From: Candidatus Pelagibacter communis
GTDB taxonomy: Bacteria > Pseudomonadota > Alphaproteobacteria > Pelagibacterales > Pelagibacteraceae
NCBI GenBank assembly: GCA_001180065.1
Contig: CVSM01000049.1
Coordinates: 1-57,174 of the forward strand
Direction: 5' to 3'
Length of the DNA stretch: 57,174 bases
Positions within the stretch are counted from its first letter, which is position 1; every line of letters begins with the position of its first letter. Both the position numbers and the translations under genes were made by a program. Positions 10,267 through 29,519 of this stretch are shown here, piece after piece. Below the pieces are notes generated by a model. It saw only the letters and a program-made list of their open reading frames with translations. It did not search any database and was not told the DNA's origin.

Positions 10267-11103
10267 TTAACTTATTGATAAGTATTCAAATAATGACCTT
10301 ATTGAGACAATAATTAAAAAAGTGCCAAAAATTTTACTTAATATTTTTTTATCAATTTTATAAACAGCTTTTGCCCCAACCCTTGCCATAATCATTGTAA
10401 CAGGCACAAATACAATAAAACCTAGAAGATTTATATATCCTAAACTAAAAGGAGAGGTAACATTATTAATTAATTCTCCTCCTGTAATCATAGTGAGGGT
10501 GCCACTCAACGCAATTAAAAATCCTACTGCCGCAGCTGTACCTATAGATTTTCTAATATCATATCCAAATGTTCTCATGAAAGGAACCATTAACGAACCA
10601 CCTCCAATACCAAGAGGAACTGAGATAAAACCAATTATTACACCCGAAATATTTTTAATTAAATCTGATATTTTTTTTGGATTATCCATAAGCTTCTCCC
10701 GTACAAAAATAAAAAATATACCCACGATAAAAGCAAAAATCGAAAAGAATAATACTAAAGCAGGTGTTTTTAAATTTACTGCTAGAAATGTTCCAGCAAT
10801 TACTCCTAAAAGAATGAAAATACCAAATGATTTTACCATTTTGAAATCGACTGCGTCATATTCCATGTGTGTTCTAGTTGAAATGATGGATGTTGGAATA
10901 ATTATTGCTAAAGATGTCCCAACAGATAAATGCATTCTAGTAACAATATCAAAATCTAAAACTGTAAATGCATAATACAATGCTGGCACCATTATTATAC
11001 CTCCACCCACTCCAAGTAATCCTGCCATGAAACCGGCAACGGCTGCTGCTGATCCAAGTACAATTAAAAGATTAATTAATTCAGATGAATTTAATATTTC
11101 CAT
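10267..11103 (-). CDS. TauE/SafE family sulfite/organosulfur anion exporter
   Basis: A 278-residue polytopic inner-membrane protein with the two-repeat TauE/SafE design: GLLGVGGGIIMVPAL near residue 30 and VPLGIGGGSLMVPFM near residue 165, each followed by several membrane helices. Family members move sulfite, sulfoacetate or related anions out of the cell; the substrate cannot be assigned here. The start codon overlaps the stop of dusA (ATG at 11101-11103), so the two genes are coupled, apparently as part of a run with the TRAP genes upstream. An exporter for sulfur-containing anions fits a cell that degrades organosulfur compounds, but that link is inference. Confidence 0.85.
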   Translation of the reverse strand: MEILNSSELINLLIVLGSAAAVAGFMAGLLGVGGGIIMVPALYYAFTVLDFDIVTRMHLSVGTSLAIIIPTSIISTRTHMEYDAVDFKMVKSFGIFILLGVIAGTFLAVNLKTPALVLFFSIFAFIVGIFFIFVREKLMDNPKKISDLIKNISGVIIGFISVPLGIGGGSLMVPFMRTFGYDIRKSIGTAAAVGFLIALSGTLTMITGGELINNVTSPFSLGYINLLGFIVFVPVTMIMARVGAKAVYKIDKKILSKIFGTFLIIVSIRSLFEYLSIS

Positions 11104-12107
11104 TAAGAGTTAGTTTGATTAGCTTTTTCATTATTTTGAACAATTGTCATGATATGTTTTGCTTTTTGAAAGTCTGAATCTCTTGCCATCATATTATCAC
11201 TTAAATATCTTTTCCACTCTTTAGACCCTATTTGGCCATGATACAATCCAACTGTATGTCTCATTATATGATTTACTTTAGTCCCTTGCTTAACTTCTTT
11301 ATCTAAGTATTCTAAAAGTTTTTCAGCTACTTGTTCACGAGATGGATTAGATGAGGTTTTAAATATTTCTTTCTCAATTTCAATTAATGAATAAGGATTT
11401 TGATAAATTGATCTACCGATCATTACCCCGTCACAGAAATTTAAATGATGATTTATTTGCTCAACTTTTGTAATACCACCATTAATAATTATTTCTAGAT
11501 CAGGGTTTTCTTTTTTAATTTCGTATACCATTTCATAATTTAATTTAGGTATATTTAAATTTTGTTTAGGTGTAAGACCAGTAAGAATTGCTTTTCTTGC
11601 GTGCAAGATGAATGTCTTTGATCCAGCACTTTTCATCTTACGAATAAAATTATTCAAATAATTAAAATCTTCTGTATCATCAAATCCAATTCTAGTTTTT
11701 GCTGTTACAGGTATTTTACAAGCATTTACCATTGAATTGATACATTCAGCTACCAAATCTGGATCTTTCATTAAACATGCGCCAAACATATTTTTTTGAA
11801 CTTTCTTGCTAGGGCAGCCTAAATTTATATTAATTTCATCATATCCCATTTCCTCAGCAATCTTAGCTACTTCAGCTAATTCTTCTTTATTCGATCCACC
11901 CACCTGTAAAGCTAAAGGTTTTTCCTCAGGACTATAAGATAAAATTTTTTTTCTATCACCGTGTATTGCAGATTTTGTAGCTACCATCTCAGTATATAAC
12001 ATTACATTCTTGCTCATCAGTCTTAAAAAAAATCGATCGTGTCTATCAGTGCAATCCATCATTGGAGCAACTGAAATTTTTCTATTAATCTTTTTTTTAA
12101 AAGCCAA
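11103..12107 (-). CDS. dusA: tRNA-dihydrouridine synthase DusA
   Basis: FMN/NADPH enzyme reducing uridine to dihydrouridine in the tRNA D-loop. The 334-residue protein starts with the flavin-binding SVAPMMDCTDRHDRFFLR typical of DusA. It has the catalytic Cys in INLGCPSKKVQ (about 98) and a TAKTRIGFDD segment, and ends with a helical RNA-binding region. The start is probably TTG at 12107, since the next ATG falls inside the conserved APMMD motif. It overlaps the end of dctM by 11 bases. The DusA subtype rests on TDRHDRFFLR, which differs from DusB and DusC. Confidence 0.93.
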   Translation of the reverse strand: MAFKKKINRKISVAPMMDCTDRHDRFFLRLMSKNVMLYTEMVATKSAIHGDRKKILSYSPEEKPLALQVGGSNKEELAEVAKIAEEMGYDEININLGCPSKKVQKNMFGACLMKDPDLVAECINSMVNACKIPVTAKTRIGFDDTEDFNYLNNFIRKMKSAGSKTFILHARKAILTGLTPKQNLNIPKLNYEMVYEIKKENPDLEIIINGGITKVEQINHHLNFCDGVMIGRSIYQNPYSLIEIEKEIFKTSSNPSREQVAEKLLEYLDKEVKQGTKVNHIMRHTVGLYHGQIGSKEWKRYLSDNMMARDSDFQKAKHIMTIVQNNEKANQTNS

Positions 12108-13428
12108 GGTCCTTACCCATTATTTTATCAGGCAACCATGTAACAATCTCAGGAAAAATACATAAAATTACTATGGCCAAAGCCATTATTATCATGAATG
12201 GTATAGATCCTTTTAATATTTCCGACAAACTAACATCTGGAGTAATTCCTTTAATTATATAAAGATTTAATCCTACAGGCGGTGTTATTAATCCAATTTC
12301 CATGTTGATAGTAAATACAATGGCAAACCAATAAGGATCAAAACCTAATGTTGTAATAACTGGCAATAAAATTGCTGAGGTCATTACAATTACTGCAACT
12401 GGTGGCAAGAAGAAACCAGCTATTAAAAGAAAAATATTTATCAAAATAAATACAACCCATTTATTCGAACTTAATTCAACCATACTTTGCGCTAAAGACT
12501 GGGTCACATAAAGTTGTGAAAGAGTAAATGCAAAAAGATAAGACGCTGCAATAATAAACATTATCATTACACTTTCTTTCATTGAAACTTTGACAATGTT
12601 CCATATCTTTCTTGGTTGATAAATTTTATAAACAACAGCAATTAAAACAAAAACTAAGAATGCTCCTACTCCAGATGCCTCTGATGGTGTTGCAACTCCT
12701 CCATAAAGTACATATAAAACTCCTGCTATAATCGCTAAGAAAGGAAGAATTCTCGGTAAAACCTCAAGTTTTTCTTTTAAAGTTGGTCTTACTCTATTTC
12801 TTAAGGCTTTTGCTGCATCTTTATCAATAAAGTAACTATGTATAAGAGCCCATATTGCGAACATACCTGCTAACATGAAGCCAGGAACAAGACCGCATAA
12901 AAATAATCTTCCAATTGATGTACCTGTTGCAATTCCGTAAACTATTAAAACAATACTCGGAGGAATTAAAACTCCCAAAGTTCCGCCAGCAGCAATTGTT
13001 CCTGTTGCAATTTGGTCAGAATATCCTCTTTTTCGCATTTCTGGTATTCCCATCGTTCCGATAGCGGCACAAGTTGCAGGACTTGATCCACTTAAAGCAG
13101 CAAAAATTGAACATGCTCCAATATTAGAAATTACTAATCCCCCTGGCACTCTCCAAAGCCATCTATCTAAACCTGTATATAAATCTTTACCTGCAGGAGA
13201 ATTGGCAACTGCCATCCCCATTAAAATAAACATTGGTATAGAAAGTAAAACAAAAGAATTTAGTCCTGCAAAAAAAGTTTCAGCAAACACATCAAGCATT
13301 TGAAAACCTTCAAATGTAACTAACAGAGCTATCGAAACAAAACTCAAACCAAAAGCAATCGGAATTCCAGAAAAAAGTACCAATAAAGTAAAAACCGCAA
13401 CAATCAATGCAATAATCAGTGGATCCAT
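12097..13428 (-). CDS. dctM: TRAP transporter large permease DctM
   Basis: A 443-residue membrane protein of the DctM/SiaM family with about 12 helices. It forms the ion-coupled transport channel for an organic acid or osmolyte delivered by the periplasmic DctP protein. Recognisable segments are ANSPAGKDLYTGLDRW, AALSGSSPATCAAIGTMGIP (a family signature near residue 115), and the repeat-like PPVGLNLYIIKGI near residue 385. It follows dctQ with back-to-back codons and is followed by dusA with an 11-base overlap. Substrate identity is unknown; see the adjacent DddQ-like cluster for a possible link. Confidence 0.93.
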   Translation of the reverse strand: MDPLIIALIVAVFTLLVLFSGIPIAFGLSFVSIALLVTFEGFQMLDVFAETFFAGLNSFVLLSIPMFILMGMAVANSPAGKDLYTGLDRWLWRVPGGLVISNIGACSIFAALSGSSPATCAAIGTMGIPEMRKRGYSDQIATGTIAAGGTLGVLIPPSIVLIVYGIATGTSIGRLFLCGLVPGFMLAGMFAIWALIHSYFIDKDAAKALRNRVRPTLKEKLEVLPRILPFLAIIAGVLYVLYGGVATPSEASGVGAFLVFVLIAVVYKIYQPRKIWNIVKVSMKESVMIMFIIAASYLFAFTLSQLYVTQSLAQSMVELSSNKWVVFILINIFLLIAGFFLPPVAVIVMTSAILLPVITTLGFDPYWFAIVFTINMEIGLITPPVGLNLYIIKGITPDVSLSEILKGSIPFMIIMALAIVILCIFPEIVTWLPDKIMGKDLGF

Positions 13429-13923
13429 TTAATTAAAATCCTTTTCATCAGTTAATTTTATAATTTCTGCGATATATTGTAATATCATTAATAAAGCCCC
13501 TAACATCATTGAAGAATATGGTATCCATAGTGGTGGATCCCAGACAGTTCCTGTAGAATAATTTTTGGTAAACGCTTCCTCTACCATTATAAATCCAAAG
13601 TAGAATAAAATTAGGAAAAATAATAAACTTACAGAGGATGTAAAAATTTTTAATCTAACAACATTTTTTTTTGATAAAAAATCATAAATCCATTCCATGC
13701 TAACATGAGCTTTCTCACTTAAGACGTATACGCTCCCTATAAAAGTTGAAGCGACTAATAACATTGTGACAAGTTCTGTCTGCCATGTAATTGCTCTTTG
13801 AAAAAAATATCGTTCAAACACAAGTTCAACGATTACTAATATTGATAAGAGCAATGCCATTACCGCAAAAGCACCACAGGCTTTAGCTATTAGATCACAT
13901 AATTGAAGATATTTTTTTTTCAT
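13429..13923 (-). CDS. dctQ: TRAP transporter small permease DctQ
   Basis: A 164-residue protein with four predicted membrane helices, the small membrane subunit of a TRAP transporter. A family-like stretch covers FIGSVYVLSEKAHVSMEWIY, near residues 62-81. It begins immediately after a hairpin plus T7 tract (13924-13959), so translation has no room for a normal ribosome binding site. This arrangement probably lowers expression of the membrane subunits relative to the binding protein dctP. Substrate unknown. Confidence 0.88.
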   Translation of the reverse strand: MKKKYLQLCDLIAKACGAFAVMALLLSILVIVELVFERYFFQRAITWQTELVTMLLVASTFIGSVYVLSEKAHVSMEWIYDFLSKKNVVRLKIFTSSVSLLFFLILFYFGFIMVEEAFTKNYSTGTVWDPPLWIPYSSMMLGALLMILQYIAEIIKLTDEKDFN

Positions 13924-13973: not shown

Positions 13974-14984
13974 TTATTTAACTGCTAAAGCCATTTCCAT
14001 TAGCTTATCGCCACCTGGAACTTTATCAGCAAATGCTTTATGAGAAGATTTTTTTGCAATCTCTACCCATGCAGCATGGTCTTTAGCGTCCATGTACACT
14101 AATTTTACACCTGCAGCTTTATAGGCGTCTTCAAACTTTTTGTCTAAGTTTTCTACTTGAGCTGTCATGTATTTCTCAGCAACTTTACCAGCTTTCATTA
14201 AAGCTTTTTGTTGTTTAGAATTTAATGCATCGAAAGACTTTTTCGACATCAAAATTGGTTCATACATAAACCATAAACCAAATTTTCCTGGAGGAGTTGC
14301 ACATGAGACTTGTTCATAAATTTTGTAACTTACAAAACTTCCTGAACTAGTATTGGCACCTGTTAAAACACCAGTTTGTAGACCTGTATAGATTTCAGAT
14401 GATGGCATACTTTGTATACCAGCTCCTGCTGCTTCTAACATTTGGTTAAATGCTTTTCCTGCAGCTCTCATAACTTGACCTTTGGCATCGCTAGGATTTT
14501 TTATACATTTTGTTTTTGAAGCAAAACCACCACCTAACCAAGCATCAGACAAAACTACAACACCTGCATCATTAATAATCTTTTTAATTTCAGTCATCAT
14601 TGGACCTTTATTAAATCTTAATGCATGGTCATGATTTTTTACAGTTCCAGGCATTAAAGTTGCATCAAACTCTGGATGAAATTTAGAAGCATATGCTAAT
14701 GGAAAAGCAGAAATATCTAATTGACCAGTTGTCATCGGTTTCCACTGTTCTTTTGGTTTGTATAATGATTTAGCTGGATAGATTCTTATATCTATCCCAA
14801 CATTTGCTTTTTTAACCTCGTCAGCAATGATTTGAACCATTTCATGACGTGGATCATAAGATCCATCAGCTCTTGGAGTACCAGGCCATTGGTGACTTGC
14901 TTTAAGCGTCACTGCATAAGCAGAACCAATAGTGGTAAAAACAAAAACTAATGAAGTTAAGTATAAAGATATTCTTTTTAACAT
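13974..14984 (-). CDS. dctP: TRAP transporter periplasmic binding protein DctP
   Basis: A 336-residue extracytoplasmic solute receptor with a clear signal peptide (positively charged start, hydrophobic core, cleavage after SAYA near residue 24). It shows DctP-family features: LKASHQWPGTPRADGSYDPR, a GQVMRAAGKAFNQML segment with the conserved Arg that binds the substrate carboxylate, and SSEIYTGLQTGVLTGA. The SD-like GAGGG lies 10 bases before the ATG. The first gene of dctPQM is divergent from the CaiB-type CoA-transferase gene at 15082, sharing a 97-base promoter region, so the transporter may feed that pathway. Ligand probably a carboxylate; identity not decidable. Confidence 0.92.
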   Translation of the reverse strand: MLKRISLYLTSLVFVFTTIGSAYAVTLKASHQWPGTPRADGSYDPRHEMVQIIADEVKKANVGIDIRIYPAKSLYKPKEQWKPMTTGQLDISAFPLAYASKFHPEFDATLMPGTVKNHDHALRFNKGPMMTEIKKIINDAGVVVLSDAWLGGGFASKTKCIKNPSDAKGQVMRAAGKAFNQMLEAAGAGIQSMPSSEIYTGLQTGVLTGANTSSGSFVSYKIYEQVSCATPPGKFGLWFMYEPILMSKKSFDALNSKQQKALMKAGKVAEKYMTAQVENLDKKFEDAYKAAGVKLVYMDAKDHAAWVEIAKKSSHKAFADKVPGGDKLMEMALAVK

Positions 14985-15081: not shown

Positions 15082-16224
15082 ATGGATGGACCTTTAAAAA
15101 ATTTATTAGTTGTTGATTTAACTAGAGTATTAGTGGGTCCTTATTGTACCATGATACTTTCTGATCTTGGTGCAAGGGTGATCAAAGTTGAAGCACCAGA
15201 GATTGGTGACGATTCAAGAAAATTTGGACCATTTATAGAAAATTATTCAGCTTATTTTATGTCATTAAATAGAGGTAAGGAGAGTATAGCTCTTAATTTA
15301 AAAAATAATGATGATAAAAATATTTTTGATAAAATTTTATCTAAAGCAGATATTTTAGTAGAAAATTTTAAACCAGGCACTCTTGAAAAATGGGGATATG
15401 GTTGGAAAGAAATAAATAAAAAATATCCAAAATTAATTTATGCATCTGCTTCGGGATTTGGACAAACTGGTCCCTTAAAAGAATTACCCGCATACGATAT
15501 GGTAGTTCAAGGTATGGGGGGTTTAATGAGTGTTACGGGTCAGCCTAATTCAGAACCGACACGAGTTGGGACTTCTATAGGTGATATTACAGCAGGACTG
15601 TTTACAGCTATTGGAATTAATGCTGCACTTTATGATAGACAAAAAACTGGTAAAGGTATGTATATTGATGTTTCGATGCTTGATTGTCAGATTGCGATAT
15701 TAGAAAACGCAATTGCAAGATACTTAGCAAAAAATGAAATTCCAAAACCGATGGGATCACGTCATCCTTCAATTGCACCCTTTGAAGCTTTTAAAACTAA
15801 AGATAGTCATATTATAATTGCAGCTGGAAATGATAAATTATTTGAAAAGCTATGTAATATTTTAGATATGTCTGAGATGATCAATGACTCAAGATTTATA
15901 GACAATTCATCAAGAGCAAAGAATATGGATGAATTAAAAAAAATTCTTGAAGATAAATTAAAAAAAAAAGATACAAAAAATTGGGTTAATGCTATGGAAA
16001 AAGAAAAAATTCCATGTGGTCCAATATTTAATATTAAGGAGGCTGTTGAAAATCCTCAAGTAGAATCCAGAAATATGATTGTAAAAGCTTATCATAAAGT
16101 AATTGGTGATTTTAAATTAGCTGGAAACCCAATAAAAATGTCAACATATATAGACGAGAAAACAAGAGGAGATATTCCAGATCTTGATGAACATCGAGAA
16201 AAAATATTAAAAGAATTTAGTTAA
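15082..16224 (+). CDS. CaiB/BaiF family (class III) CoA-transferase
   Basis: A 380-residue family III CoA-transferase, which moves CoA between carboxylic acids through an aspartyl-CoA thioester. The signature start is VVDLTRVLVGPYCTMILSDL. ENFKPGTLEKWGYG follows near residue 94, and LPAYDMVVQGMGGLMSVTG contains the likely catalytic Asp139. The C-terminal KIPCGPIFNIKEA is also typical. It is the first gene of a plus-strand operon with an aldehyde dehydrogenase, a methyltransferase-like protein and a DddQ-like lyase. It is not DddD, which has two fused CaiB domains and about 830 residues. Activating acrylate, 3-hydroxypropionate or another acid with CoA is inference from these neighbours. Confidence 0.88.
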   Translation: MDGPLKNLLVVDLTRVLVGPYCTMILSDLGARVIKVEAPEIGDDSRKFGPFIENYSAYFMSLNRGKESIALNLKNNDDKNIFDKILSKADILVENFKPGTLEKWGYGWKEINKKYPKLIYASASGFGQTGPLKELPAYDMVVQGMGGLMSVTGQPNSEPTRVGTSIGDITAGLFTAIGINAALYDRQKTGKGMYIDVSMLDCQIAILENAIARYLAKNEIPKPMGSRHPSIAPFEAFKTKDSHIIIAAGNDKLFEKLCNILDMSEMINDSRFIDNSSRAKNMDELKKILEDKLKKKDTKNWVNAMEKEKIPCGPIFNIKEAVENPQVESRNMIVKAYHKVIGDFKLAGNPIKMSTYIDEKTRGDIPDLDEHREKILKEFS

Positions 16225-16249
16225 TAATATTTTATGGTATTTAATACAT

Positions 16250-17683
16250 ATGTTAGATAAGAAAAAATTTTATATTAACGGAGAATGGGTAAACCCAATC
16301 AACCAAAATAATTTTAATGTGATAGACCCATCTTCAGAGGAAATTTGTGCTGTGATTTCACTTGGTAGCACAGCTGATACAAATTTAGCTGTAAAATCTG
16401 CGAAGCAATCTTTTGAAACCTGGAAAGAAAGCACTAAAGAAGAGAGAATAAAACTTTTAGAAAAATTGCTGGAGATTTATAATTCTAGATGGGATGAAAT
16501 GACCAATGCTATATCAACAGAACTAGGTTGTCCTAAAGACTGGTGTTCGGCAAATCAAACTTCATCTGGTGCTTCTCACATAGAGGACTTTATAAAAAGA
16601 TTAAAAGAATTCGATTTTGAACCTGGATTTGGAAAAGAATCTGCAAATCATATAATTTACGAACCCATCGGTGTTTGTGGTTTAATAACGCCGTGGAATT
16701 GGCCTATTAATCAGATTGCTTTAAAAGTTATACCTGCCCTTGCAACAGGTTGCACAATGGTTTTAAAACCATCTGAAATTGCACCTCTTTCAGGAATGTT
16801 ATTTGCAGAAATGATACATGAGGCTGGTTTTCCTCCAGGAGTTTTCAATTTAGTGAACGGAGATGGTTCAGGAGTTGGAACGGATTTATCAAAACATCCT
16901 GATATTGACATGGTTTCTTTTACTGGTTCGACAAGAGCAGGAAAATTAATCACCAAAAACGCAGCAGAGACAATAAAAAGAGTATGTCTAGAGCTTGGTG
17001 GCAAAGGAGGAAATATTGTTTTTGCAGATTCTTATCCTGATGCTGTAAGAGATGGTATTAGAAACGTGATGAGTAATTCTGGTCAATCATGTGATGCCCC
17101 TACACGAATGTTAGTTGAAAAATCTATTTATGATAGAGCTATAAAAGAAGCTGCTGATGAAGCAAACAAAATAAAAGTAAATTTAGCAAGTAAATCAGGC
17201 AATCATATAGGACCTGTCATTTCTAAAGTACAATTCGATAAAATTCAAAGCTTAATTAAAAGTGGAATTGAGGAAGGAGCAACATTAGTCGCGGGGGGTC
17301 CTGATAAGCCAGGGGATTTTAAAAAAGGGTATTTTATAAAACCAACAGTTTTTACAGATGTTAATAATTCAATGAGAATTGCTAAAGAAGAGATTTTTGG
17401 TCCTGTTTTATCTATTATTCCATTCGAAAATGAAGAAGAAGCTATTAAAATAACTAATGATACAGAATATGGTTTAGGAAATTACCTTCAAACAGAAGAT
17501 AAAGAAAAAGCAAAAAGAGTCTCAAAAAAACTAAGAGCTGGAATAATTTACGTAAATAATAAACCAGCAGACTCTGGAACTCCTTTTGGAGGATACAGAC
17601 AGTCAGGGAATGGTCGTGAGGGAGGTACTTGGGGTTTACATGAATACCTTGAGGTTAAAACAATTACAGAGTGGAATAGATAA
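16250..17683 (+). CDS. NAD(P)-dependent aldehyde dehydrogenase
   Basis: A 477-residue ALDH-superfamily enzyme oxidising an aldehyde to the acid. All catalytic elements are present: Asn150 in TPWNWP, Lys173 in LKPSEIAP, Glu248 in LELGGKGGN, and the nucleophile Cys281 in NSGQSCDAPTRM, plus EEIFGPVL near residue 381. The substrate is not evident: the sequence is the broad-range type rather than the CoA-acylating methylmalonate-semialdehyde type. Its place between a CoA-transferase and a DddQ-like lyase suggests an aldehyde made during breakdown of a small osmolyte such as malonate semialdehyde, but this is inference. It starts 25 bases after the CoA-transferase stop. Confidence 0.9.
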   Translation: MLDKKKFYINGEWVNPINQNNFNVIDPSSEEICAVISLGSTADTNLAVKSAKQSFETWKESTKEERIKLLEKLLEIYNSRWDEMTNAISTELGCPKDWCSANQTSSGASHIEDFIKRLKEFDFEPGFGKESANHIIYEPIGVCGLITPWNWPINQIALKVIPALATGCTMVLKPSEIAPLSGMLFAEMIHEAGFPPGVFNLVNGDGSGVGTDLSKHPDIDMVSFTGSTRAGKLITKNAAETIKRVCLELGGKGGNIVFADSYPDAVRDGIRNVMSNSGQSCDAPTRMLVEKSIYDRAIKEAADEANKIKVNLASKSGNHIGPVISKVQFDKIQSLIKSGIEEGATLVAGGPDKPGDFKKGYFIKPTVFTDVNNSMRIAKEEIFGPVLSIIPFENEEEAIKITNDTEYGLGNYLQTEDKEKAKRVSKKLRAGIIYVNNKPADSGTPFGGYRQSGNGREGGTWGLHEYLEVKTITEWNR

Positions 17684-17702
17684 TTTTATTTAAAGAAAAA
17701 TT

Positions 17703-18089
17703 ATGATCGGATATGTGATGGTTGGAACAAATAATCTTAATAGATCTATAAAATTTTATGATGAACTCTTTAAGGTTATTGGCCTAAAAAGAACAGATAC
17801 GGATGATGTGTGTGCTGGATACATAACTATAGGTGGTTCTGGATCAATTGAATTTTATATCACTAAACCATTTAATAAAGAAAAAGCGACTTTTGGAAAT
17901 GGTACTCAGGTATCATTTATAGTAGGCAACAGAAATATAGTTGATAAATTTCATGAAGTAGGTTTAAAATTAGGAGCTCGAAGTGAAGGTTCAGGTGGTG
18001 AAAGACCAGAAGGATCTGGAGTTTATTATTCTTATATTCGAGATTTAGATGGAAATAAAATCTGTGCTTTCACAAATAGTAAAGTTTGA
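17703..18089 (+). CDS. VOC-family (glyoxalase/dioxygenase-fold) protein
   Basis: A 128-residue single-domain protein of the vicinal oxygen chelate superfamily. It opens with MIGYVMVGTNNLNRSIKFYDEL and ends with RDLDGNKICAF, the two hallmarks of the betaalphabetabetabeta units. Typical metal ligands are incomplete: no His follows the start, although a Glu in SIEFY remains. It could be a non-catalytic or substrate-binding member or a small lyase. Cotranscribed: 19 bases after the aldehyde dehydrogenase, and its TGA overlaps the ATG of the next gene (TGATG). No specific function can be given. Confidence 0.8.
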   Translation: MIGYVMVGTNNLNRSIKFYDELFKVIGLKRTDTDDVCAGYITIGGSGSIEFYITKPFNKEKATFGNGTQVSFIVGNRNIVDKFHEVGLKLGARSEGSGGERPEGSGVYYSYIRDLDGNKICAFTNSKV

Positions 18090-19009
18090 TGTCATACAAA
18101 TTTATCGAAGAGAAATTAAATAATAATAAATTAGTAATTTTAGATGGAGCTATGGGCTCTGAGCTAGAAAAAAAAGGTGCACTTATGGACAAAAATCTCT
18201 GGTGTGGCACATGTTCGGTTGAATTCCCAGAACTAGTAAAAAAAGTTCATGAAGATTATATTGAAGCAGGTGCAGACGTGATAACAACTAATACATATGC
18301 TTGTACTCCTATTTCAATGAAAAATTATGGAATGGAAAGTTTAATCAAGAAATTCAATCAAAAAAGTGTTGAATTAGGTAAAAAAGCAATTGAAAATTCA
18401 AAAAAAAAAGTGGCATTAGCTGGAAGTGTTTCAGCATCTGGGAGTTTTTTCAGATACGGAATTGAAGCACTGAAACCAGGATTTAATGAACAAATAAAAA
18501 TTTTATCTGAAGAGGGAGTAGATTTAATTATTTTAGAGGCAATGTCTTCACAAGCAGACATTGTTGAAACAATGCTGGAATGTTCTATTAAAATTAAAAT
18601 ACCAGTGTGGCTTTCAATTTCGTGTGTAATTGATAAAAAAACTGACAACTTGATGCTTGGTTATAATGATACTCTTGATGATCCCCCGGAAGTTTATGAA
18701 GATTTAGAGAAATCAATCAAAAGATTTAGTAAAATACATTCAGGTCCAATTTTGATTGCTCACTCTGATATTGATGTTACAGGTAGAGCGATAAAGGTAG
18801 CAAAGAAAAATTATACTGGAACAATAGGAGCTTATCCTAACATTGGTTTTTATGAAAAACCTCATTGGAGATCAGATAGTAATTTAAGTCCACAAGATTA
18901 TTTGAATGAGGTAAAATCATGGGTAAAAAATGGGACACAAATAGTTGGAGGATGTTGTGGAGTAGGAGTAAACCTTATAAAGCCACTCTCTTCACTTAAT
19001 AATGAATAA
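18089..19009 (+). CDS. homocysteine S-methyltransferase family protein with altered zinc ligand
   Basis: A 306-residue TIM-barrel protein of the MmuM/BhmT family. It has ILDGAMGSELEKKG (residues 17-30), TTNTYACTP (67-74), YPNIGFYEK (249-257) and the zinc pair GGCCGVG at 287-293 (Cys289, Cys290). Normally a third zinc Cys sits in a GVNC-type motif; in the aligned place this protein has His225 (IAHSDIDVTGRAI). The family moves a methyl group from S-methylmethionine, betaine or DMSP-type donors to homocysteine. With a DddQ-like lyase immediately downstream (8-base overlap), a sulfonium methyl donor such as DMSP is an attractive guess. I set the start at the ATG overlapping the previous stop; a TTG one codon earlier is less likely. 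Confidence 0.82.
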   Translation: MSYKFIEEKLNNNKLVILDGAMGSELEKKGALMDKNLWCGTCSVEFPELVKKVHEDYIEAGADVITTNTYACTPISMKNYGMESLIKKFNQKSVELGKKAIENSKKKVALAGSVSASGSFFRYGIEALKPGFNEQIKILSEEGVDLIILEAMSSQADIVETMLECSIKIKIPVWLSISCVIDKKTDNLMLGYNDTLDDPPEVYEDLEKSIKRFSKIHSGPILIAHSDIDVTGRAIKVAKKNYTGTIGAYPNIGFYEKPHWRSDSNLSPQDYLNEVKSWVKNGTQIVGGCCGVGVNLIKPLSSLNNE

Positions 19010-19595
19010 TACAACAGATATCTTTGATAAAGCTAAAATCGAAGTTCAAAAGTTATGGGCCAATCATAAAGAATTATCAAATTTTGTTAATTTTCCAAAA
19101 AATTTGGTTTTAAATAGTCTTAAGTCTCAAAAGACATCAGTAACTGATAAACTTTTTAATTGGAATAAAAATCTTAATACAAAACTTTTAGAATTACATA
19201 AGGCAATTAGTGATTTATCACCTTATGTTAATTGGGAACAAGGGTATAAAGAAAAAGAAGTTGGTAAAGATTTTTTAAATAAATATGGTTTTTTTGAGTT
19301 AATTGGACCAACTGGACACTTTCAAACATCAGAAATGGCTCTTTATGTAAATTTTTTAGATAAAAATGCTTATTACCCTTGGCATAATCACGAAGCTGAA
19401 GAATTATATTTTATTGTATCAGGTGAAGCTAAATTTGAAAGTAAAAATCAAAAAGAGGAAATTTTATCATCTACAAAAACTAGATTTCATAAAAGTTATC
19501 AACCTCATGCTATTACAACCTTAGACCAACAAATCTTAAGTTTTGTAATTTGGAAAAATAAATTTGAAAATATCTCAAAAATTGTTCAACAGTAA
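19002..19595 (+). CDS. dddQ: DddQ-like cupin DMSP lyase
   Basis: A 197-residue cupin protein. It holds the DMSP-lyase metal and catalytic pattern with the spacing of DddQ: Tyr125, His128, His130, Glu134 and Tyr136 in YYPWHNHEAEELYFIVSGEA, then His169 in YQPHAI. DddQ enzymes cleave dimethylsulfoniopropionate to DMS and acrylate, using a bound transition metal and a Tyr as base. The length fits DddQ (about 200), not DddK or DddW (130-150) or DddL (about 230). The first 100 residues are helical, as in DddQ. It overlaps the methyltransferase-like gene upstream by 8 bases, so the two are coupled. Assignment is by motif; activity toward DMSP, not another sulfonium acid, remains unproven. Confidence 0.75.
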   Translation: MNNTTDIFDKAKIEVQKLWANHKELSNFVNFPKNLVLNSLKSQKTSVTDKLFNWNKNLNTKLLELHKAISDLSPYVNWEQGYKEKEVGKDFLNKYGFFELIGPTGHFQTSEMALYVNFLDKNAYYPWHNHEAEELYFIVSGEAKFESKNQKEEILSSTKTRFHKSYQPHAITTLDQQILSFVIWKNKFENISKIVQQ

Positions 19596-19605
19596 ATAAT
19601 ATAAT

Positions 19606-20769
19606 ATGAGTAATGAAAAATTAGAAACTGATCTCAATCCAGATTTAGTTGTATCAGAGGATAATAAACCAAGATGGTACTTACCTAAAACACGAAGAGA
19701 GGGTTATAGAAATCTTCATAAGATTAACAGATATGGTTTATTATTAAGATCAGATCTTGTTTTAAGATTAAATAAAAAATTTAATAGTGAAATAGAAGAA
19801 ATTCCATCTGTAAAAAGTATGATTAATAATAAATATTTTTGTTCATTACTTGTAGGTAAGAATCAAAATATATTGTATGAAAAATATGCTAAAGATTTTT
19901 CAGAAAATCAGCCTCAGACAATAATGTCTATCACCAAAATGTTTATAAATTTGTTTATTGGCAAACTTGTAGAGCAAAAATCAATTGATCTTAATAAAAA
20001 AATTTCTGACTATCTTCCTAATATTGGAAGTGGCTATGCTTCAGCAACAATCCAAAATGTTTTAGATATGAATATTCAAAACTCTTATAGTGAAGATTAT
20101 ACAGACCCCTACACTTCCTCATTTTTACATGAGCCAATTTGTGGGTGGCGCCTTCCAGAAAATTTAAATGAAAAGATGGGACAGGAAGAATATTTAAATT
20201 CTATCAAATCTAATGAAGGAAAGGATTTATCAAACGATTCTAAATTTTCTCACTACAAATCTGCTAATACAGATGTAATTGGAATTTTAATAGAAAAAGT
20301 AAGTGGAAAATCATTAAAGGAATGGCTGTTAGATGCTGTTGAAGCTGCAGGATTTGAAGATGCTTTATACATGGGAACTGACAGATATGGGATGCCATGG
20401 ATTTCAGGGGGTGGGTGTTTAATTTCAAGAGATTTTTTAAGATACGGTCTATTATTCGCTAGAAAAGGTAAAGGTGTAGGAAACAGGCAAATTGGATCGC
20501 CTAAATTCTTTGATCAAACGTTAAAAAATAAAGGATCTATTTATATGAAGTTATCAGATAACAAGTCTTTATATTATTCAAATTCTACTATGAAAACAGG
20601 TGACTGGATTGGTCACTCTGGTTTAGGTGGTCAATTTCTAGCAGTAAATTTAAAAACTGGTGTAGTGGCCTCTTATTTTTCTGTGATAGACACAAAATCA
20701 GGAACAGATGACGAATACAAAAAAAATATGATAAATATGTTAGATGAAATAGTTAACAAAAATTTTTAA
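19606..20769 (+). CDS. beta-lactamase-fold serine hydrolase (family S12-like)
   Basis: A 387-residue serine hydrolase of the class C beta-lactamase/esterase/D-Ala peptidase superfamily. The nucleophile motif SxxK is Ser108-Ile-Thr-Lys111 in TIMSITKMF. A YxN-like triad occurs as YKSAN (about 219), and the third motif is HSGLGG near 344. There is no obvious signal peptide, so it may act in the cytoplasm as an esterase or amidase rather than as an antibiotic-resistance enzyme. Members with this architecture include 6-aminohexanoate-oligomer hydrolases. It is last in the plus-strand operon, ten bases after the DddQ-like gene. Its substrate is unknown. Confidence 0.82.
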   Translation: MSNEKLETDLNPDLVVSEDNKPRWYLPKTRREGYRNLHKINRYGLLLRSDLVLRLNKKFNSEIEEIPSVKSMINNKYFCSLLVGKNQNILYEKYAKDFSENQPQTIMSITKMFINLFIGKLVEQKSIDLNKKISDYLPNIGSGYASATIQNVLDMNIQNSYSEDYTDPYTSSFLHEPICGWRLPENLNEKMGQEEYLNSIKSNEGKDLSNDSKFSHYKSANTDVIGILIEKVSGKSLKEWLLDAVEAAGFEDALYMGTDRYGMPWISGGGCLISRDFLRYGLLFARKGKGVGNRQIGSPKFFDQTLKNKGSIYMKLSDNKSLYYSNSTMKTGDWIGHSGLGGQFLAVNLKTGVVASYFSVIDTKSGTDDEYKKNMINMLDEIVNKNF

Positions 20770-20780
20770 AACTAATCTTT

Positions 20781-21641
20781 TTAAATTTTATTTATTTTTT
20801 CTGCTATTAATATTTTTCTTTGCATTTCTCTGAGGACAGGTTTTTCAATAAGTTTTCCATCAATTACTACTAGTCCAGTATTAGATTCATTGAATTGATC
20901 TACAATTTTTTTAGCTTTCATAATTTCTTCTTTAGAAGGTGTAAAAATTTCATTTAAGATATTTATTTGTTTTGGATGAATAGATCCCTTTCCTGTAAAT
21001 CCTAAATCTCTTACTAATTCTGATTCTTTTTTCATCCCATCCATATCATCTAAATCCAAATAGGGTACATCTATTACATCTACCCCGACACTAGCCCCTG
21101 CATGTACTAATTTTGACCTTGCATAAATCAAGTTTTTATATTCATTTGGAACTCTTAATTCAGCAGCCATATCAACTCCTCCAAAATATAATGCAACTAT
21201 TCTTTTGCTGGCATGTGCAATTTCATAAATACTTTCAAGTGCTTCATTGGTCTCCATTATAACATGAAGATCAGTATCTAATCCACAATCTGTCAAAAGA
21301 TTATCTATAAAAGTTATCTCTTCTGGTGTTTTAACTTTGGGTAGCATTAATGCTTTAATTGGTAATTTACTAGAAATAAAAGCCTCTAGATCCAAGAGAC
21401 CAAACTTAGTTCTTTGACAATTAACTCGAACCACTAACTCTACACCATTTTTAACTTCAAGATTTTTAAGAGCGTCTATAGTATTTTTTCTTGCTTCATC
21501 TTTATCCTTGATTGCAATACCATCTTCTAATTCAATACAAACCATATCTGCACCCGATGCAATAGCTTTTGGAAACATTTCAGGTTTTAGACCTGGTGTA
21601 AAAATAAAACTACGTCTTACATTTATTTTATTTGAATTCAT
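20781..21641 (-). CDS. CitE/HpcH-family acyl-CoA lyase
   Basis: A 286-residue TIM-barrel lyase of the citrate lyase beta-chain/malyl-CoA lyase type. It begins with RRSFIFTPGLKPEMFPKAI and shows CIELEDGIAIKDKDEAR (metal and substrate acids, about 34-50), ALYFGGVDMAAEL (about 160), and KGSIHPKQI near residue 219. Such enzymes cleave malyl-CoA, methylmalyl-CoA or citramalyl-CoA reversibly. It faces the CoA-transferase operon convergently, so a shared CoA-linked pathway is possible but unproven. I use the ATG at 21641; a TTG one codon upstream would also be in frame. Confidence 0.82.
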   Translation of the reverse strand: MNSNKINVRRSFIFTPGLKPEMFPKAIASGADMVCIELEDGIAIKDKDEARKNTIDALKNLEVKNGVELVVRVNCQRTKFGLLDLEAFISSKLPIKALMLPKVKTPEEITFIDNLLTDCGLDTDLHVIMETNEALESIYEIAHASKRIVALYFGGVDMAAELRVPNEYKNLIYARSKLVHAGASVGVDVIDVPYLDLDDMDGMKKESELVRDLGFTGKGSIHPKQINILNEIFTPSKEEIMKAKKIVDQFNESNTGLVVIDGKLIEKPVLREMQRKILIAEKINKI

Positions 21642-21684
21642 CAAATTACTATATCTTATAATTGAAAATGTTATTCATTTTTTT

Positions 21685-22593
21685 TTAAACTGATTGTTTG
21701 CTTACATTTTCTTTTGGAGATAGAACTACAGCCACTATTCCTCCAATAACTATTAAGGAGCAACCAGTAACTTGACGCCAACCAAATGGCTCATCAGTAA
21801 GAATGCTTGAGCTTACAGCGCCTACAATGATTTCTGATAAAAAAAGAATTGAACATATCCCAGCTCCTATTTGAGTTGGAGCCCAAAGAATTACAATACC
21901 AGTAGGTATAAAATAAAAAATTGATAAAAGAATTAAGAAAGTAGTCATTCCAACAAATGCGTCCCGAGTTGGTACAGGACCAAGATAGTCCACGAGTAAA
22001 AAACCAGCCACAATATTGAATAATGTTCCATAAAAGAAAAAACCGAAAATGATTGGGAATACTCCGTCAGTTTTGATGACCTCAAGCCTGATCATTCCTC
22101 CAGCAAACATAACCCCACCTAAAAGAGCAATCCAATCTCCTGCATTTACTGGTAAAGGAATTTTACCACCTTGTCCAAATACTACCCATAATCCGCCAAG
22201 TGCTAAACTTAAACTTAAAATTCTTTGCCAACCATGTTTCTTCTTTAAAAAAATTATTTCAAAAATCGTTGTCCAAACGGGCGTCATATAAAACATTATC
22301 AAAGCTCTCACTACATCTGTTAATAGAAAACTTAATGCGTATAATATAAATCCTCCACCAATTAAAATTCCCATAGCCGGATGCTCTAATCCTGTGCCTT
22401 TTCTTTTGCTTAGTCTCCAAATGGCAATAGGTAATAGTATTAATGTACCTATTATCATTTGAGAAATTGTGCCCCAACCTCCTGTAAGACCACCATCCTC
22501 AAGTATTCTTTGTGGTAACCAATATATTCCCCAAGCTCCAGCTGATATAGCTAAAGCTATTGAGATTTTATAATGGTGAGGGTGTCTTTGCAT
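21685..22593 (-). CDS. EamA-family (DMT superfamily) transporter
   Basis: A 302-residue protein with about 10 predicted membrane helices in two similar halves, the drug/metabolite transporter EamA fold. The first half carries WGIYWLPQRILEDGG and LTDVVRALIMFYMTPVWTTI; the second ends with a QVTGCSLIVIGGIVAVV segment typical of the final helix. Substrate unknown; the family moves amino acids, purines and other metabolites. It follows the amidase gene by seven bases on the same strand, so the two are likely cotranscribed. Confidence 0.85.
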   Translation of the reverse strand: MQRHPHHYKISIALAISAGAWGIYWLPQRILEDGGLTGGWGTISQMIIGTLILLPIAIWRLSKRKGTGLEHPAMGILIGGGFILYALSFLLTDVVRALIMFYMTPVWTTIFEIIFLKKKHGWQRILSLSLALGGLWVVFGQGGKIPLPVNAGDWIALLGGVMFAGGMIRLEVIKTDGVFPIIFGFFFYGTLFNIVAGFLLVDYLGPVPTRDAFVGMTTFLILLSIFYFIPTGIVILWAPTQIGAGICSILFLSEIIVGAVSSSILTDEPFGWRQVTGCSLIVIGGIVAVVLSPKENVSKQSV

Positions 22594-22599
22594 TAATTA

Positions 22600-24012
22600 T
22601 TATATTTCCGGTTTTATTTTTGAATAATTGAACATTTGTTCGTATTTTCTTGCAAATGCAAGCACTTTTAAATCATTGTTCTTTTTTCCTATTATTTGCA
22701 TTCCCATTGGTAGTTTATTTTTATTAAAACCAACTGGAACTGTTATAGTTGGTAATTCTAAAAGGCTTGATAATATAAAAACTTCAATCCATCGATGATA
22801 AGTATCTAGACTAAAATCATTTATTTTTTCTGGATAATTTAATTCTTTTTTAAATGGAAATACTTGTGCTGATGGTAAAGCTAAAAAATCGTAATCTTTA
22901 AATATCTGATTTATGTCATTTATAGATTTTTTTCTTTTTTCTAATGCAATATCAATATCATTATCTTCAATATCTTTTCCCCTATTGTACTCCCAAATTG
23001 CCTGAAAAGTCATTTCATTAATATCTTTAATACTCATACTTCCAATATCCATAAATATACTTTTTGATCTTAATATTAACCACGAGTCCCATAGTTCATC
23101 AGTATTAATATCTGATTTCAAAAAATCTATTTTTATATTTTGTTTATTTAACTCGCTTAATTTTTTTTCACAAATTTCTAATATTTCATTTTCAAATTTA
23201 TAATTACTATTAACATCGGATAACCATCCTATTTTTATATTTTTAATTTCTGAATCTTTTATTTCAAAATTTTGAAAATTAGATTTTAATTCTAAAGAAT
23301 ATGGATCCAAACTGTGTTTACCAGTTACGCTATCTAAAATAATTGTCATATCGTCTGGTGTTCTAGATAAAAAACCAGGAGTAGTTAAAATAGGAATATT
23401 TTTTTGGTTGTCTGATCTAGCAGAAGCAATAACTCCTGGGGTTGGTCTAAAACCGTATATATTAGAGTATGCAGCGGGATTCCTACATGAACCCATTTGA
23501 TCTGTACCATCAGCAAAGGGAATTAATTGAGCTGCGACTGCTGAACTTGCGCCTCCGCTTGAACCACCAGACGACTTGCTTAAGTCATAAACATTTGAAG
23601 TTGGACCAAAAAGTCTATTAATTGTATGTCCTCCAATTCCAAGTTCAGCTGTATTAGTTTTTCCAATTATTATTGCACCGTTTTCAATTAGTTTATCCAC
23701 AAAAAAAGAATTTTTTTTTGGAAAATGATCTTTGTAACCTTTAAAACCGTATGTTGTTTGAATTCCAACGACATCACTTAAATCTTTAATAGCTAACGGT
23801 AAACCAAATAAAGATTTATTTTTATTCTGTTGATTATCTTTTTTTTTAGCCTCTTCTAATATTTTCTCAGTATCTTTCAAAAGAACAATTGCATTTAATT
23901 TTGGATTATACTTTTCAATCCTTGCTAAATAGAATTCTACTACTTCTTTTACTGATATCTGTTTTGTCTGAATTAATTTAATAATTTCAGATACTTTTTT
24001 GTTTTCTAGCAT
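22600..24012 (-). CDS. amidase signature family hydrolase
   Basis: A 470-residue amidase-signature enzyme. The catalytic triad is evident: Lys in PLAIKDLSD (about residue 77), Ser in the GGSSGGASSAV loop (about 150), and the nucleophile Ser in DGTDQMGSCRNPA (about 174). The closing RPTPGVI is also conserved. It could act on a small amide or on a carbamate/urea-like compound. It is not GatA, because there is no gatB or gatC neighbour and the C-terminal part is divergent. Upstream by five bases is the iron-type alcohol dehydrogenase, so amidase, EamA transporter and dehydrogenase probably form one operon. The substrate cannot be given. Confidence 0.88.
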   Translation of the reverse strand: MLENKKVSEIIKLIQTKQISVKEVVEFYLARIEKYNPKLNAIVLLKDTEKILEEAKKKDNQQNKNKSLFGLPLAIKDLSDVVGIQTTYGFKGYKDHFPKKNSFFVDKLIENGAIIIGKTNTAELGIGGHTINRLFGPTSNVYDLSKSSGGSSGGASSAVAAQLIPFADGTDQMGSCRNPAAYSNIYGFRPTPGVIASARSDNQKNIPILTTPGFLSRTPDDMTIILDSVTGKHSLDPYSLELKSNFQNFEIKDSEIKNIKIGWLSDVNSNYKFENEILEICEKKLSELNKQNIKIDFLKSDINTDELWDSWLILRSKSIFMDIGSMSIKDINEMTFQAIWEYNRGKDIEDNDIDIALEKRKKSINDINQIFKDYDFLALPSAQVFPFKKELNYPEKINDFSLDTYHRWIEVFILSSLLELPTITVPVGFNKNKLPMGMQIIGKKNNDLKVLAFARKYEQMFNYSKIKPEI

Positions 24013-24017
24013 CTGCC

Positions 24018-25211
24018 CTAGCGAGCTTTTTTAATACTTTTTAAAGTTAATTGTTCAACTTCTTCTAAAGTTGCTTTTTTAGGATTTTGACCATAGGCCT
24101 GATCGAGCATAGATTTTTTCGCAATTCTTTTGAATGAATCCTCAGGTACACCAATTTCATTTAATCCTCTTGGAATATCAAGTTCATCTAACATTTTATT
24201 TAAATTTTCTTTAAAACCTTTAACTGAATGGTCATCAAATTGCATTGCCTCTGACATTCGCTGAACTTTTTCCTCTAAACCGGGTAAATTATATTCCATT
24301 ACTGTAGGTAGAATTATTGCATTAGTAAGTCCATGATGGGTATTATATTCTGCACCAACCATATGAGAGATGGCATGTACTAAACCTAAGCCTTTTAAAA
24401 AAGCTACTCCTCCTAAATAAGACCCTACAATCATTCCTCCCCTTGCAACTAAATTGTCTGGTTCATTTACTGCCAGTTTAAGAGACTTAGAAATTAAATT
24501 TAAACTTTCTAAAGCTGAACCATCACATAACGGATGAAACATAGGAACACTGTAACCCTCAATAGCGTGTATCATTGCATCAATACCGGTCCAAGCTGTT
24601 AGGTTTGCTGGTAACTTTAAAGTTAATTCTGGATCAACTAATGCTAAGCAGGGTCTAGCTTCTGGATGCCATATACAAAATTTCATACCTTTTTTTGTGT
24701 CAGTAACCATTGCAGTTATTTCTGTTTCTGCACCTGTACCAGCAGTTGTTGGTATAGTTATTAGCTTTGGAAAAGGGTTTTTACCTTTTAGATCTCTTGG
24801 AACTTTATCTAAAAATTCAAAATCCCACAAAGGTATTCCGCTATTAACAGTTAAGCATATAGCTTTTCCTCCATCCATCGCGCTGCCCCCTCCTATTGCG
24901 ATTATAGAATCATGATTACCGTCTTTGAATGCTTTGCAGCCACCATCGATTTCATCATCTCTAGGGTTGGGAGATATATTAGAATAAATATTTGATTTAA
25001 TTTTTGTATCAGAAAGCAGATTTTGTAATTCACTTATAAAGGGCAGCTTAGTGCTTCCACTATCTATTACGATTAAAGGATTTTGAATATTGAAATCTTT
25101 GCAGAATTTTCCAATTTCTTTAAATCTTCCTGGCCCATAAGCCGTAAATGTTGGAAAGGTCCAATCTTGTTTGCCTAATAAATCGTCTTTATTGAGTTCA
25201 AAATTTTGCAT
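24018..25211 (-). CDS. iron-containing alcohol dehydrogenase
   Basis: A 397-residue NAD(P)-dependent group III alcohol dehydrogenase. Signs are the nucleotide loop IAIGGGSAMDGGKAICL (about 100), TIPTTAGTGAETEITAMV (about 153) and the metal ligands in HAIEGY, LGLVHAISHMVG and THHGLTNAI. It would reduce an aldehyde or oxidise an alcohol. Some DMSP-catabolic clusters in other bacteria contain an iron-type dehydrogenase (DddB) for 3-hydroxypropionate. This gene is 4.4 kb from the DddQ-like gene on the opposite strand, so that role is only a possibility. It is the first gene of the amidase operon. Confidence 0.88.
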   Translation of the reverse strand: MQNFELNKDDLLGKQDWTFPTFTAYGPGRFKEIGKFCKDFNIQNPLIVIDSGSTKLPFISELQNLLSDTKIKSNIYSNISPNPRDDEIDGGCKAFKDGNHDSIIAIGGGSAMDGGKAICLTVNSGIPLWDFEFLDKVPRDLKGKNPFPKLITIPTTAGTGAETEITAMVTDTKKGMKFCIWHPEARPCLALVDPELTLKLPANLTAWTGIDAMIHAIEGYSVPMFHPLCDGSALESLNLISKSLKLAVNEPDNLVARGGMIVGSYLGGVAFLKGLGLVHAISHMVGAEYNTHHGLTNAIILPTVMEYNLPGLEEKVQRMSEAMQFDDHSVKGFKENLNKMLDELDIPRGLNEIGVPEDSFKRIAKKSMLDQAYGQNPKKATLEEVEQLTLKSIKKAR

Positions 25212-25247
25212 ATTTATTTAAAAATTTATACTAACTTACAAAAATAA

Positions 25248-26180
25248 ATGAAAATCGCAAAAGAAAAAGTAGATCTTAAGAAAACTTTAATCGCAATACT
25301 TACAATGCTATTAGGTGTAGTTTGCGTAGATTTATATTTAGTAGTAATTAGATTTATAGGAAATGACTATTCAGTGTTTAAATTAGCTGTTTTTAGAAAT
25401 TTTTTTGCGGTAATACCATTGCTTGTTCTGCTTTTCTTTTCAGGAGAATACAACTCTCTTTTTAAGAATGTAAATAAGAAATTTTTATCTCTCTGTTGTT
25501 TAAGAGGATTAAGTTTTCTTGCAATGAATATATTTATTTTTATCTCAGTAATTAATGTTGAGTTTGCAACAGCAATGACTTTAACTTTTTCATCTCCATT
25601 TTTCATTGTAATACTTTCGATTATATTTTTACAAGATAAAGTCGGTATATATCGATGGTCTGCAATTATAATTGGCTTTTTAGGTGTGGTATTAATTTTA
25701 AAGCCAACGAGTGATATATTTAATTATTATTCTATATATTCAATACTAGTAGCTTTTGCTTGGGGAGTAACGGTTATAATACTTAAGTTTATTCCTTCGA
25801 ACTTCTCAACGTCCAAAATACAATTTTATACATTGATTTTTAATGTGATAGGTGCATTTTTTTTATTTGTTATTTTATCAAACGATTTTACGGTTAATAA
25901 TCTAAGAGATTTACTATTAATGGTTTTGACAGGTATACTTGGTGGTACAGCAGCAATATTATTTGTATACGCGTATAGACTAATTTCATTAAGTAAGCTC
26001 GCCTCCTTTGAATATTTTGGTATCCCGTCTTCATTTTTATTAGGTTGGATTTTTTTTAATGAAGCTCCGTGGCAACAATTATTTCCAGGTGTTTTATTAA
26101 TAGTTTCTGCTGGTTTCATAATTATTTGGAGAGATTCTCAAAAAATAAAAGCAGTTAAAGCTAATAAGAAATTTTACTAG
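25248..26180 (+). CDS. EamA-family (DMT superfamily) transporter
   Basis: A 310-residue protein with ten predicted membrane helices, an EamA repeat pair. The first repeat has VFKLAVFRNFFAVIPLLVLL and LRGLSFLAMNIFIF; the second has FAWGVTVIILKF, GTAAILFVYAYRLI and PSSFLLGWIFFNEAPW, the usual EamA end. It resembles S-adenosylmethionine/riboflavin-type exporters only in fold, so no substrate is assigned. It is divergent from the alcohol dehydrogenase across 36 bases and convergent with the glycine betaine ATPase. Confidence 0.85.
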   Translation: MKIAKEKVDLKKTLIAILTMLLGVVCVDLYLVVIRFIGNDYSVFKLAVFRNFFAVIPLLVLLFFSGEYNSLFKNVNKKFLSLCCLRGLSFLAMNIFIFISVINVEFATAMTLTFSSPFFIVILSIIFLQDKVGIYRWSAIIIGFLGVVLILKPTSDIFNYYSIYSILVAFAWGVTVIILKFIPSNFSTSKIQFYTLIFNVIGAFFLFVILSNDFTVNNLRDLLLMVLTGILGGTAAILFVYAYRLISLSKLASFEYFGIPSSFLLGWIFFNEAPWQQLFPGVLLIVSAGFIIIWRDSQKIKAVKANKKFY

Positions 26181-26181
26181 T

Positions 26182-27228: not shown

Positions 27229-27263
27229 GAATAAATTAATAGTTTATCATTAAAATAGACAAT

Positions 27264-27284: not shown

Positions 27285-27306
27285 TAATTATTCTACTTTC
27301 TTAAAT

Positions 27307-29424: not shown

Positions 29425-29519
29425 CCATTTATCAAGAAATTTAGCTATTTTTTGTCCGGTTTACATTTGTATATATTTTGATCTACAATGTGTTTTTAAA
29501 TTTTAAGATAGGAGAGATA

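Follow-up and report, generated by a model that had tools for sequence, protein, structure and literature searches.

Closest described systems

DddQ, a cupin lyase of dimethylsulfoniopropionate (DMSP), is listed among the enzymes of Pelagibacterales in passages of PMC8520302, so a SAR11 DddQ is not new as such. Activation of acrylate by an AcuN-type CoA-transferase has precedent in the Halomonas and Alcaligenes clusters, and AcuI homologues are present in all three Pelagibacter genomes examined, both according to passages of PMC3338564. Passages of PMC10686828 describe DddQ as more efficient on dimethylsulfoxonium propionate (DMSOP) than on DMSP, to an extent that varies between enzymes, and those of PMC5334523 state that MsrA is able to reduce dimethyl sulfoxide (DMSO) to dimethyl sulfide (DMS). 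The subject of this analysis is a dddQ-like gene and its neighbours in contig CVSM01000049.1 of Candidatus Pelagibacter communis (assembly GCA_001180065.1), the analysed stretch of 57,174 nucleotides being referred to as the window. The genome from which it comes (G000; 834,822 bases) is 71% complete, and its kin within the genus are uncultured Pelagibacteraceae (SAR11). We consider it probable, with moderate confidence, that the cupin is a working DddQ and an optional part of a cassette, built around a VOC protein gene and a homocysteine S-methyltransferase-like (HMT) gene, in a variable SAR11 island for osmolyte catabolism. Family labels throughout come from profile models, and the enzyme functions are predicted.

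Identity of the cupin

The cupin displays the motif Y125-x2-H128-x-H130-x3-E134-x-Y136, with the spacing that an earlier note on this DNA had claimed, and H169 is a further ligand. This motif is not a chance resemblance, because the protein scores 73.1 bits against the Pfam DMSP_lyase model (PF16867; cut-off 27, E 2.8e-20) and matches solved DddQ at E 4.7e-33, with the motif residues aligning with those of 4la2. Among the metal ligands and the catalytic Tyr of 4la2, Tyr131 and His163 served as reference residues. All six positions (Y125, H128, H130, E134, Y136 and H169) are kept in 11 of 11 SAR11 rows. In a tree of 32 cupins, the 13 SAR11 sequences form a single clade (support 100/100), which together with three solved DddQ proteins and three relatives makes up a group of 19 (94/92) whose internal branching order is unsettled; this group and two more relatives are split from 11 other alphaproteobacterial cupins (100/99). 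Three loci were left out of the tree (L181, where the open reading frame (ORF) picked was not the cupin, L186 and L197), and nine other homologues gave no ORF match. The AlphaFold model (mean pLDDT 89.5) superimposes on six DddQ chains with TMq values of 0.90-0.93, as against 0.46-0.58 for DddK and DddY, and the ratio dN/dS lies between 0.12 and 0.17 for the six pairs among the four closest cupin sequences. Judged by family, tree, fold, residues and selection, 19002-19595 is predicted to encode a genuine DddQ-type DMSP lyase.

Such genes are rare in the family. Matches occur in 6 of 197 family genomes, that of the window included, and all belong to one genus, in which 6 of 399 genomes, again counting the window's, have one. 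A search of the IMG/VR viral contigs, using patterns able to detect close relatives only, did not find the cupin, and the 32 cupin records in a plasmid collection are all below 60% identity and mostly from Sinorhizobium.

An exchange slot behind the methyltransferase

In all 97 HMT loci, redundant copies counted, the VOC gene lies directly 5' of HMT, and the two genes are the constant pair of the cassette. The 97 comprise 80 Pelagibacteraceae loci and 17 more; several genomes are represented twice, and L019 and L103, copies on an apparent inverted-duplication contig, are included. The gene 3' of HMT is MsrA in 59, DddQ in 11 and neither in nine of the 80 Pelagibacteraceae loci, the last locus reaching a contig end; as 230 loci were ranked by likeness to the HMT alignment and the best 80 taken, the counts do not represent population frequencies. 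The slot MsrA scores 148.5 bits (cut-off 108.1), and an assignment of this 150-amino-acid gene to DddK was rejected on the strength of that match. DddQ is accordingly an optional gene in the slot behind HMT, which otherwise holds MsrA or neither. It stands directly 3' of HMT in seven of the nine other DddQ genomes that were fetched, and it holds the same slot where the cupins are 62-81% identical to that of the window.

The history of the slot was followed on an HMT tree of 43 rows, in which identical HMTs were merged, the locus ending at a contig end was omitted and every third MsrA row was kept. The state of the slot needs at least eight changes on this tree, compared with a mean of 18.5 after shuffling, and DddQ alone needs five, four of which are forced by well supported branches. 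This implies that DddQ has been gained or lost several times. The comparison of neighbourhoods thus finds the neighbours of DddQ to be conserved in relatives, in two layers, and the cupin groups with solved DddQ rather than outside the DddQ clade; the outcome that the earlier note had named as fatal to its proposal was not obtained.

One alternative is that DddQ is a passenger, the variable region having gathered unrelated catabolic genes whose order has no metabolic meaning. This would suit the variation of the cassette flank by lineage, where ectoine-type genes, DmdA or a butyrobetaine-dioxygenase-like gene may be found, as well as the location of DddQ elsewhere in two genomes (G078 and G248). 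A mere passenger would not be expected to retain the same slot at 62-81% cupin identity, to show low dN/dS among the four closest sequences, or to lie in a cassette whose VOC-HMT pair is intact in 97 of 97 loci, and we regard this explanation as unlikely, while according it real weight.

At an E-value of 1e-30 or below, HMT is detected in 17 of 187 family genomes, a list from which G190 is absent although it carries HMT (L015); four genomes (G000, G105, G170 and G180) are in both the DddQ and the HMT lists. Further downstream the arrangement is looser. Within the next three genes, a serine hydrolase is present in 12 and a CitE-type lyase in 11 of 19 DddQ loci, redundant copies included, which implies that neither is essential to DddQ. 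The set of EamA permease, amidase and iron-containing alcohol dehydrogenase (Fe-ADH) is complete in 84 of the 97 redundant loci, and most of the others end at contig ends. A genome of another family (G831) has both HMT-VOC-aldehyde dehydrogenase (ALDH) and EamA-amidase-Fe-ADH; DddQ, MsrA and CaiB were not found in the stretch fetched from it.

Several cassette loci are unusual in their surroundings. In L083 (contig 5 of G152), a DmdA gene at 17162-18328 (529.6 bits, over the curated cut-off) lies less than 10 kb from an MsrA-type cassette, with a thiolase and EutA/EutD-like genes in between. In L108 (AG-390-P19, Pelagibacteraceae), VOC-HMT-serine hydrolase is flanked on both sides by EutD-like M24 matches, which gives the impression that an ectoine-type operon has received the cassette. 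Positions 2916-7399 of L088 (G178) hold gamma-butyrobetaine-dioxygenase-like, beta-keto acid cleavage enzyme-like and class II aldolase genes ahead of ALDH-VOC-HMT-MsrA. A kinship with DddP and Alma was considered for the M24 and racemase genes that adjoin MsrA cassettes and was rejected, EutD and EutA of ectoine use fitting better, with both below cut-off. The 28,430-base contig 11 of G512 carries two copies of the DddQ region, L018 and L019, which run in opposite directions and have the same match scores, and CaiB is read there in two frames; the contig resembles an inverted chimera from a single-cell genome.

The methyltransferase

The HMT protein has both the barrel fold and the family model (PF02574) of homocysteine methyltransferases; its structural model (mean pLDDT 88.6) is closest to MetH (Z 33.7) and MmuM (Z 31.9). 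It remains below the NCBIfam cut-offs for MmuM (128 vs 215 bits) and BHMT (76 vs 338 bits). The segments A224-H225-S226 and G287-G288-C289-C290 are invariant in 10 SAR11 rows, the window included. AH thus stands where the canonical enzymes have NC, and a His replaces the first Cys of the zinc site, with GGCC kept; we take this His to stand at a zinc ligand position and the zinc site to have three Cys, as presumed from MmuM and BHMT. At this position MH is found in eight alphaproteobacterial relatives (L213, L214, L215, L217, L220, L223, L225 and L235) and in a second SAR11 copy, and NC is kept in six alphaproteobacterial HMTs (L226-L230 and L236); L223 has GACC instead of GGCC, and 13 more loci gave no ORF match in this comparison. 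The His-for-Cys type, found in several alphaproteobacterial families, looks uncharacterised. The first 60 residues of the gene next to HMT in L241 appear MetY-like by eye, a resemblance that would agree with methionine synthesis.

The TRAP and CoA-transferase genes

The earlier note had joined a tripartite ATP-independent periplasmic (TRAP) importer, a CoA-transferase (CaiB) and DddQ into one pathway. The binding protein gene dctP is found at an E-value of 1e-100 or below in 53 of 187 family genomes and 5 of 14 genera, and 11 cassette-free loci were picked by hand from these 53 genomes, eight from the genus and one from each of three others. In 11 of the 11, CaiB is divergent from dctP and followed by an rpoZ-like gene. 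In one such genome (G003, L091), CaiB (11017-12159) overlaps the rpoZ-like gene on the opposite strand (12156-12689) by four bases, as compared with a distance of 14,376 bases in the window. As CaiB adjoins dctP and rpoZ without a cassette, and 14.4 kb intervenes in the window, dctPQM and CaiB appear to be the end of an older SAR11 locus that is not specific to the lyase. The CaiB tree, of which 5 of 23 branches are well supported, mixes the sequences from DddQ loci with others, and L176 has DddQ without CaiB and TRAP adjoining. The single pathway proposed earlier is therefore not upheld by the distribution of its parts.

These results bear on a dedicated route in which the TRAP system would import DMSP or acrylate, DddQ would cleave DMSP, CaiB would activate acrylate as AcuN does in Halomonas, and Fe-ADH and ALDH would oxidise 3-hydroxypropionate. 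Of 19 redundant DddQ loci, 16 have CaiB 5' of ALDH, which speaks for it. It is opposed by the occurrence of CaiB and TRAP without DddQ, ALDH or HMT adjoining in all 11 picked loci, by the mixed though weakly supported CaiB tree and by L176. Furthermore, no AcuK-type hydratase was found among the ten genes scanned, so that of an AcuN/AcuK-type cluster the CoA-transferase alone is present, and ALDH reaches 250 of the 448 bits required by the model for CoA-acylating methylmalonate-semialdehyde dehydrogenase. We consider this route improbable.

Proposed explanation

The island lies here between the older TRAP/CaiB locus and rpoZ. Within it, DddQ would split DMSP, and probably also DMSOP, into DMS (or DMSO) and acrylate, the latter being handled by general enzymes, and HMT would methylate homocysteine at the expense of a methylated osmolyte, which may be a sulfonium compound. 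The dimethylsulfur or sulfoxide moiety of such compounds may be the concern of the gene in the slot, and a theme of dimethylsulfur chemistry shared by DddQ, HMT and MsrA is possible. The identity, fold, residues and selection of the cupin, the synteny and the exchange of the slot gene are observations; activity, substrate, co-expression and division of labour are what we infer from them. The genes for CaiB, ALDH, VOC, HMT and the cupin are all on the forward strand, 25 and 19 bases apart at the first two junctions and overlapping at the next two, and 10 bases separate the cupin from the serine hydrolase, the sixth gene of the run; such spacing suggests that the six share a single transcript.

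The earlier proposal of a combined demethylation and cleavage route fares differently in its two parts. With an HMT right beside the lyase, in a conserved arrangement, a cassette for demethylation plus cleavage is a fair idea, while the membership of the TRAP and CoA-transferase genes is unsupported, and a lyase in a cassette for methyl-sulfur or osmolyte salvage is the better reading when set against a dedicated TRAP-CaiB-DddQ route. Ordinary DMSP demethylation would not need the cassette, as DmdA exceeds its curated cut-off in 16 of the 18 SAR11 genomes searched. In G000, DmdA is represented only by two overlapping pieces (contig 147, 1859-2960), of which one contains two TGA stops, and a fault of sequencing or assembly is the probable cause; no DmdA over cut-off was found in G248, which is 72% complete.

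Several points weigh against the salvage cassette. In G078, DddQ is flanked by genes whose translations read like lpdA and priA, and in G248 the contig ends about 0.3 kb away, with the downstream side unseen; within the sequence available both lie outside the cassette, so DddQ also occurs without it. The arrangement of CaiB before ALDH, together with two loci (L109 and L178) that have CaiB-ALDH-VOC-HMT without dctP alongside in the available stretch, means that CaiB may still matter for the metabolism of the cassette. A promoter scan gave 31 sites against a shuffled mean of 39.8, no excess over chance. The nearest solved kin of HMT are MetH, MmuM and BHMT, and a sulfonium is a putative donor; for MsrA, protein repair may be the only function and its presence in the slot a coincidence.

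A bolder version would make the cassette an interchangeable methyl-sulfur unit, in which an HMT with a His-Cys-Cys zinc site would use DMSP, DMSOP or a comparable sulfonium compound as methyl donor for methionine, beside DmdA, and the slot gene would either cleave (DddQ) or reduce the sulfoxide (MsrA). We think this rather unlikely; if true, SAR11 lineages would tune their DMS output by swapping one gene at one site.

Gene content of the window

The features of the window are listed in the table below. Gene order, the CitE-type gene facing the run and the 97-base gap between the divergent dctP and CaiB agree with the earlier note, which had omitted the serine hydrolase and, behind CitE, the EamA, amidase and Fe-ADH genes.

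Table 1. Features in and around the dddQ gene run, with the evidence for each label
Feature	Coordinates	Strand	Evidence or remark
dctM, TRAP transporter	12097-13428	-	ORF list
dctQ, TRAP transporter	13429-13923	-	ORF list
dctP, TRAP binding protein	13974-14984	-	ORF list
CaiB-type family III CoA-transferase	15082-16224	+	PF02515 407.8 bits; best solved relative YfdE (PDB 4hl6), E 3.2e-113
ALDH, betaine-aldehyde-dehydrogenase-like	16250-17683	+	PF00171 500 bits
Small VOC protein, directly 5' of HMT	17703-18089	+	PF00903 28.2 bits
HMT	18086-19009	+	PF02574 171 bits
DddQ cupin	19002-19595	+	PF16867 73.1 bits
Serine hydrolase, beta-lactamase/esterase family, 3'-most gene of the run	19606-20769	+	PF00144 58.1 bits
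CitE/RipC-type C-C lyase, facing the run	20781-21644	-	PF03328 140 bits
EamA permease	21685-22593	-	family scan
Amidase	22600-24012	-	family scan
Fe-ADH	24018-25211	-	family scan
Second EamA permease	25248-26180		next to the ABC importer
ChoXWV/ProXWV-type ABC importer	26182-30530		NCBIfam proV and choXWV models
rpoZ-like gene	30601-31131		TIGR00690
Stretch between CaiB and the rpoZ-like gene	16225-30600		14,376 bases; not at this site in cassette-free genomes

ALDH scores 428 bits as HpaE and 423 bits as betaine aldehyde dehydrogenase, both below cut-off, and reaches the cut-off of none of the 25 NCBIfam models listed; the CitE-type protein is likewise below the NCBIfam cut-offs for RipC (238 bits) and CitE (198 bits). 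A route from gonyol or another long sulfonium acid could be drawn from these genes, with CaiB making the CoA ester, CitE releasing acetyl-CoA, ALDH oxidising a sulfonium aldehyde to DMSP and DddQ cleaving the product. The enzyme classes fit this chemistry on paper, and ALDH is of the betaine-aldehyde-dehydrogenase-like kind. Of the 19 redundant DddQ loci, though, 8 have no CitE within the next three genes, the MsrA loci listed lack it, and known CitE-type enzymes yield keto acids; as a construction from inference throughout, this route is very improbable indeed.

The binding protein of the ATP-binding cassette (ABC) importer matches PDB 4xz6 (TmoX) with 81 bits and 7yle (DmpX) with 38 bits. 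Assignments to DmpXWV and then to TmoXWV, considered with passages of PMC8918994 and PMC10030565, were dropped because these matches are too weak for either. On the other side of the run, a permease-like gene at 10267-11103, TauE-like by eye and without an NCBIfam match, comes after dus, beyond the TRAP genes, as it does in many relatives. In a scan of the window, no S-adenosylmethionine (SAM) riboswitch was found at the Rfam gathering level, a tRNA being the only feature to reach a gathering score.

Comparison with known systems

In titles, starts of abstracts and passages of the open-licence literature, no description was found of the DddQ/MsrA slot or of a cassette of HMT and lyase, and the locus is a lyase of a known family in a setting without description in the literature searched. 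Few bacteria of the surface ocean are as abundant as SAR11, and whether a given lineage releases DMS depends on its lyase. Since the lyase occupies a defined site of exchange next to an HMT, DMS output could be linked with methionine supply and sulfoxide handling, and otherwise similar lineages could be compared in these respects; the exchange of MsrA and DddQ and the His-type HMT are the points worth testing.

Like the SAR11 TmoXWV and DmpXWV importers, the transporter that adjoins the cassette is of the same family. TmoX of HTCC1062 is about 51% identical to that of DSS-3 according to passages of PMC8918994, as compared with the 81 and 38 bits of the window protein to the TmoX and DmpX structures. 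HMT shares the barrel fold and the GGCC pair with MmuM, MetH and BHMT, but has His for the third Cys. The bhmT and mmuM genes of HTCC1062 are described with a SAM riboswitch in passages of PMC5069961, whereas the window lacks one at the Rfam gathering level.

In the comparison with Halomonas and Alcaligenes, DddA and DddC are matched by enzyme class. The ddd/acu clusters of Halomonas HTNK1 and Alcaligenes resemble the window in having a lyase with a CoA-transferase and downstream dehydrogenase genes nearby, as given in passages of PMC3338564. They differ in that no AcuK- or AcuI-type gene is among the ten window genes scanned, with no search aimed at AcuI, that CaiB belongs to a separate locus and that HMT and VOC are extra. 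The Roseobacter DddQ proteins (4la2, 4b29 and 5cu1) have the same fold, metal ligands, catalytic Tyr and tree group as the window cupin, but are 28-32% identical to it, the SAR11 cupins forming a clade of their own. The dddQ gene of the window adjoins HMT, and in two Roseobacters, following passages of PMC3338564, the gene beside dddQ is of the MDR028 type.

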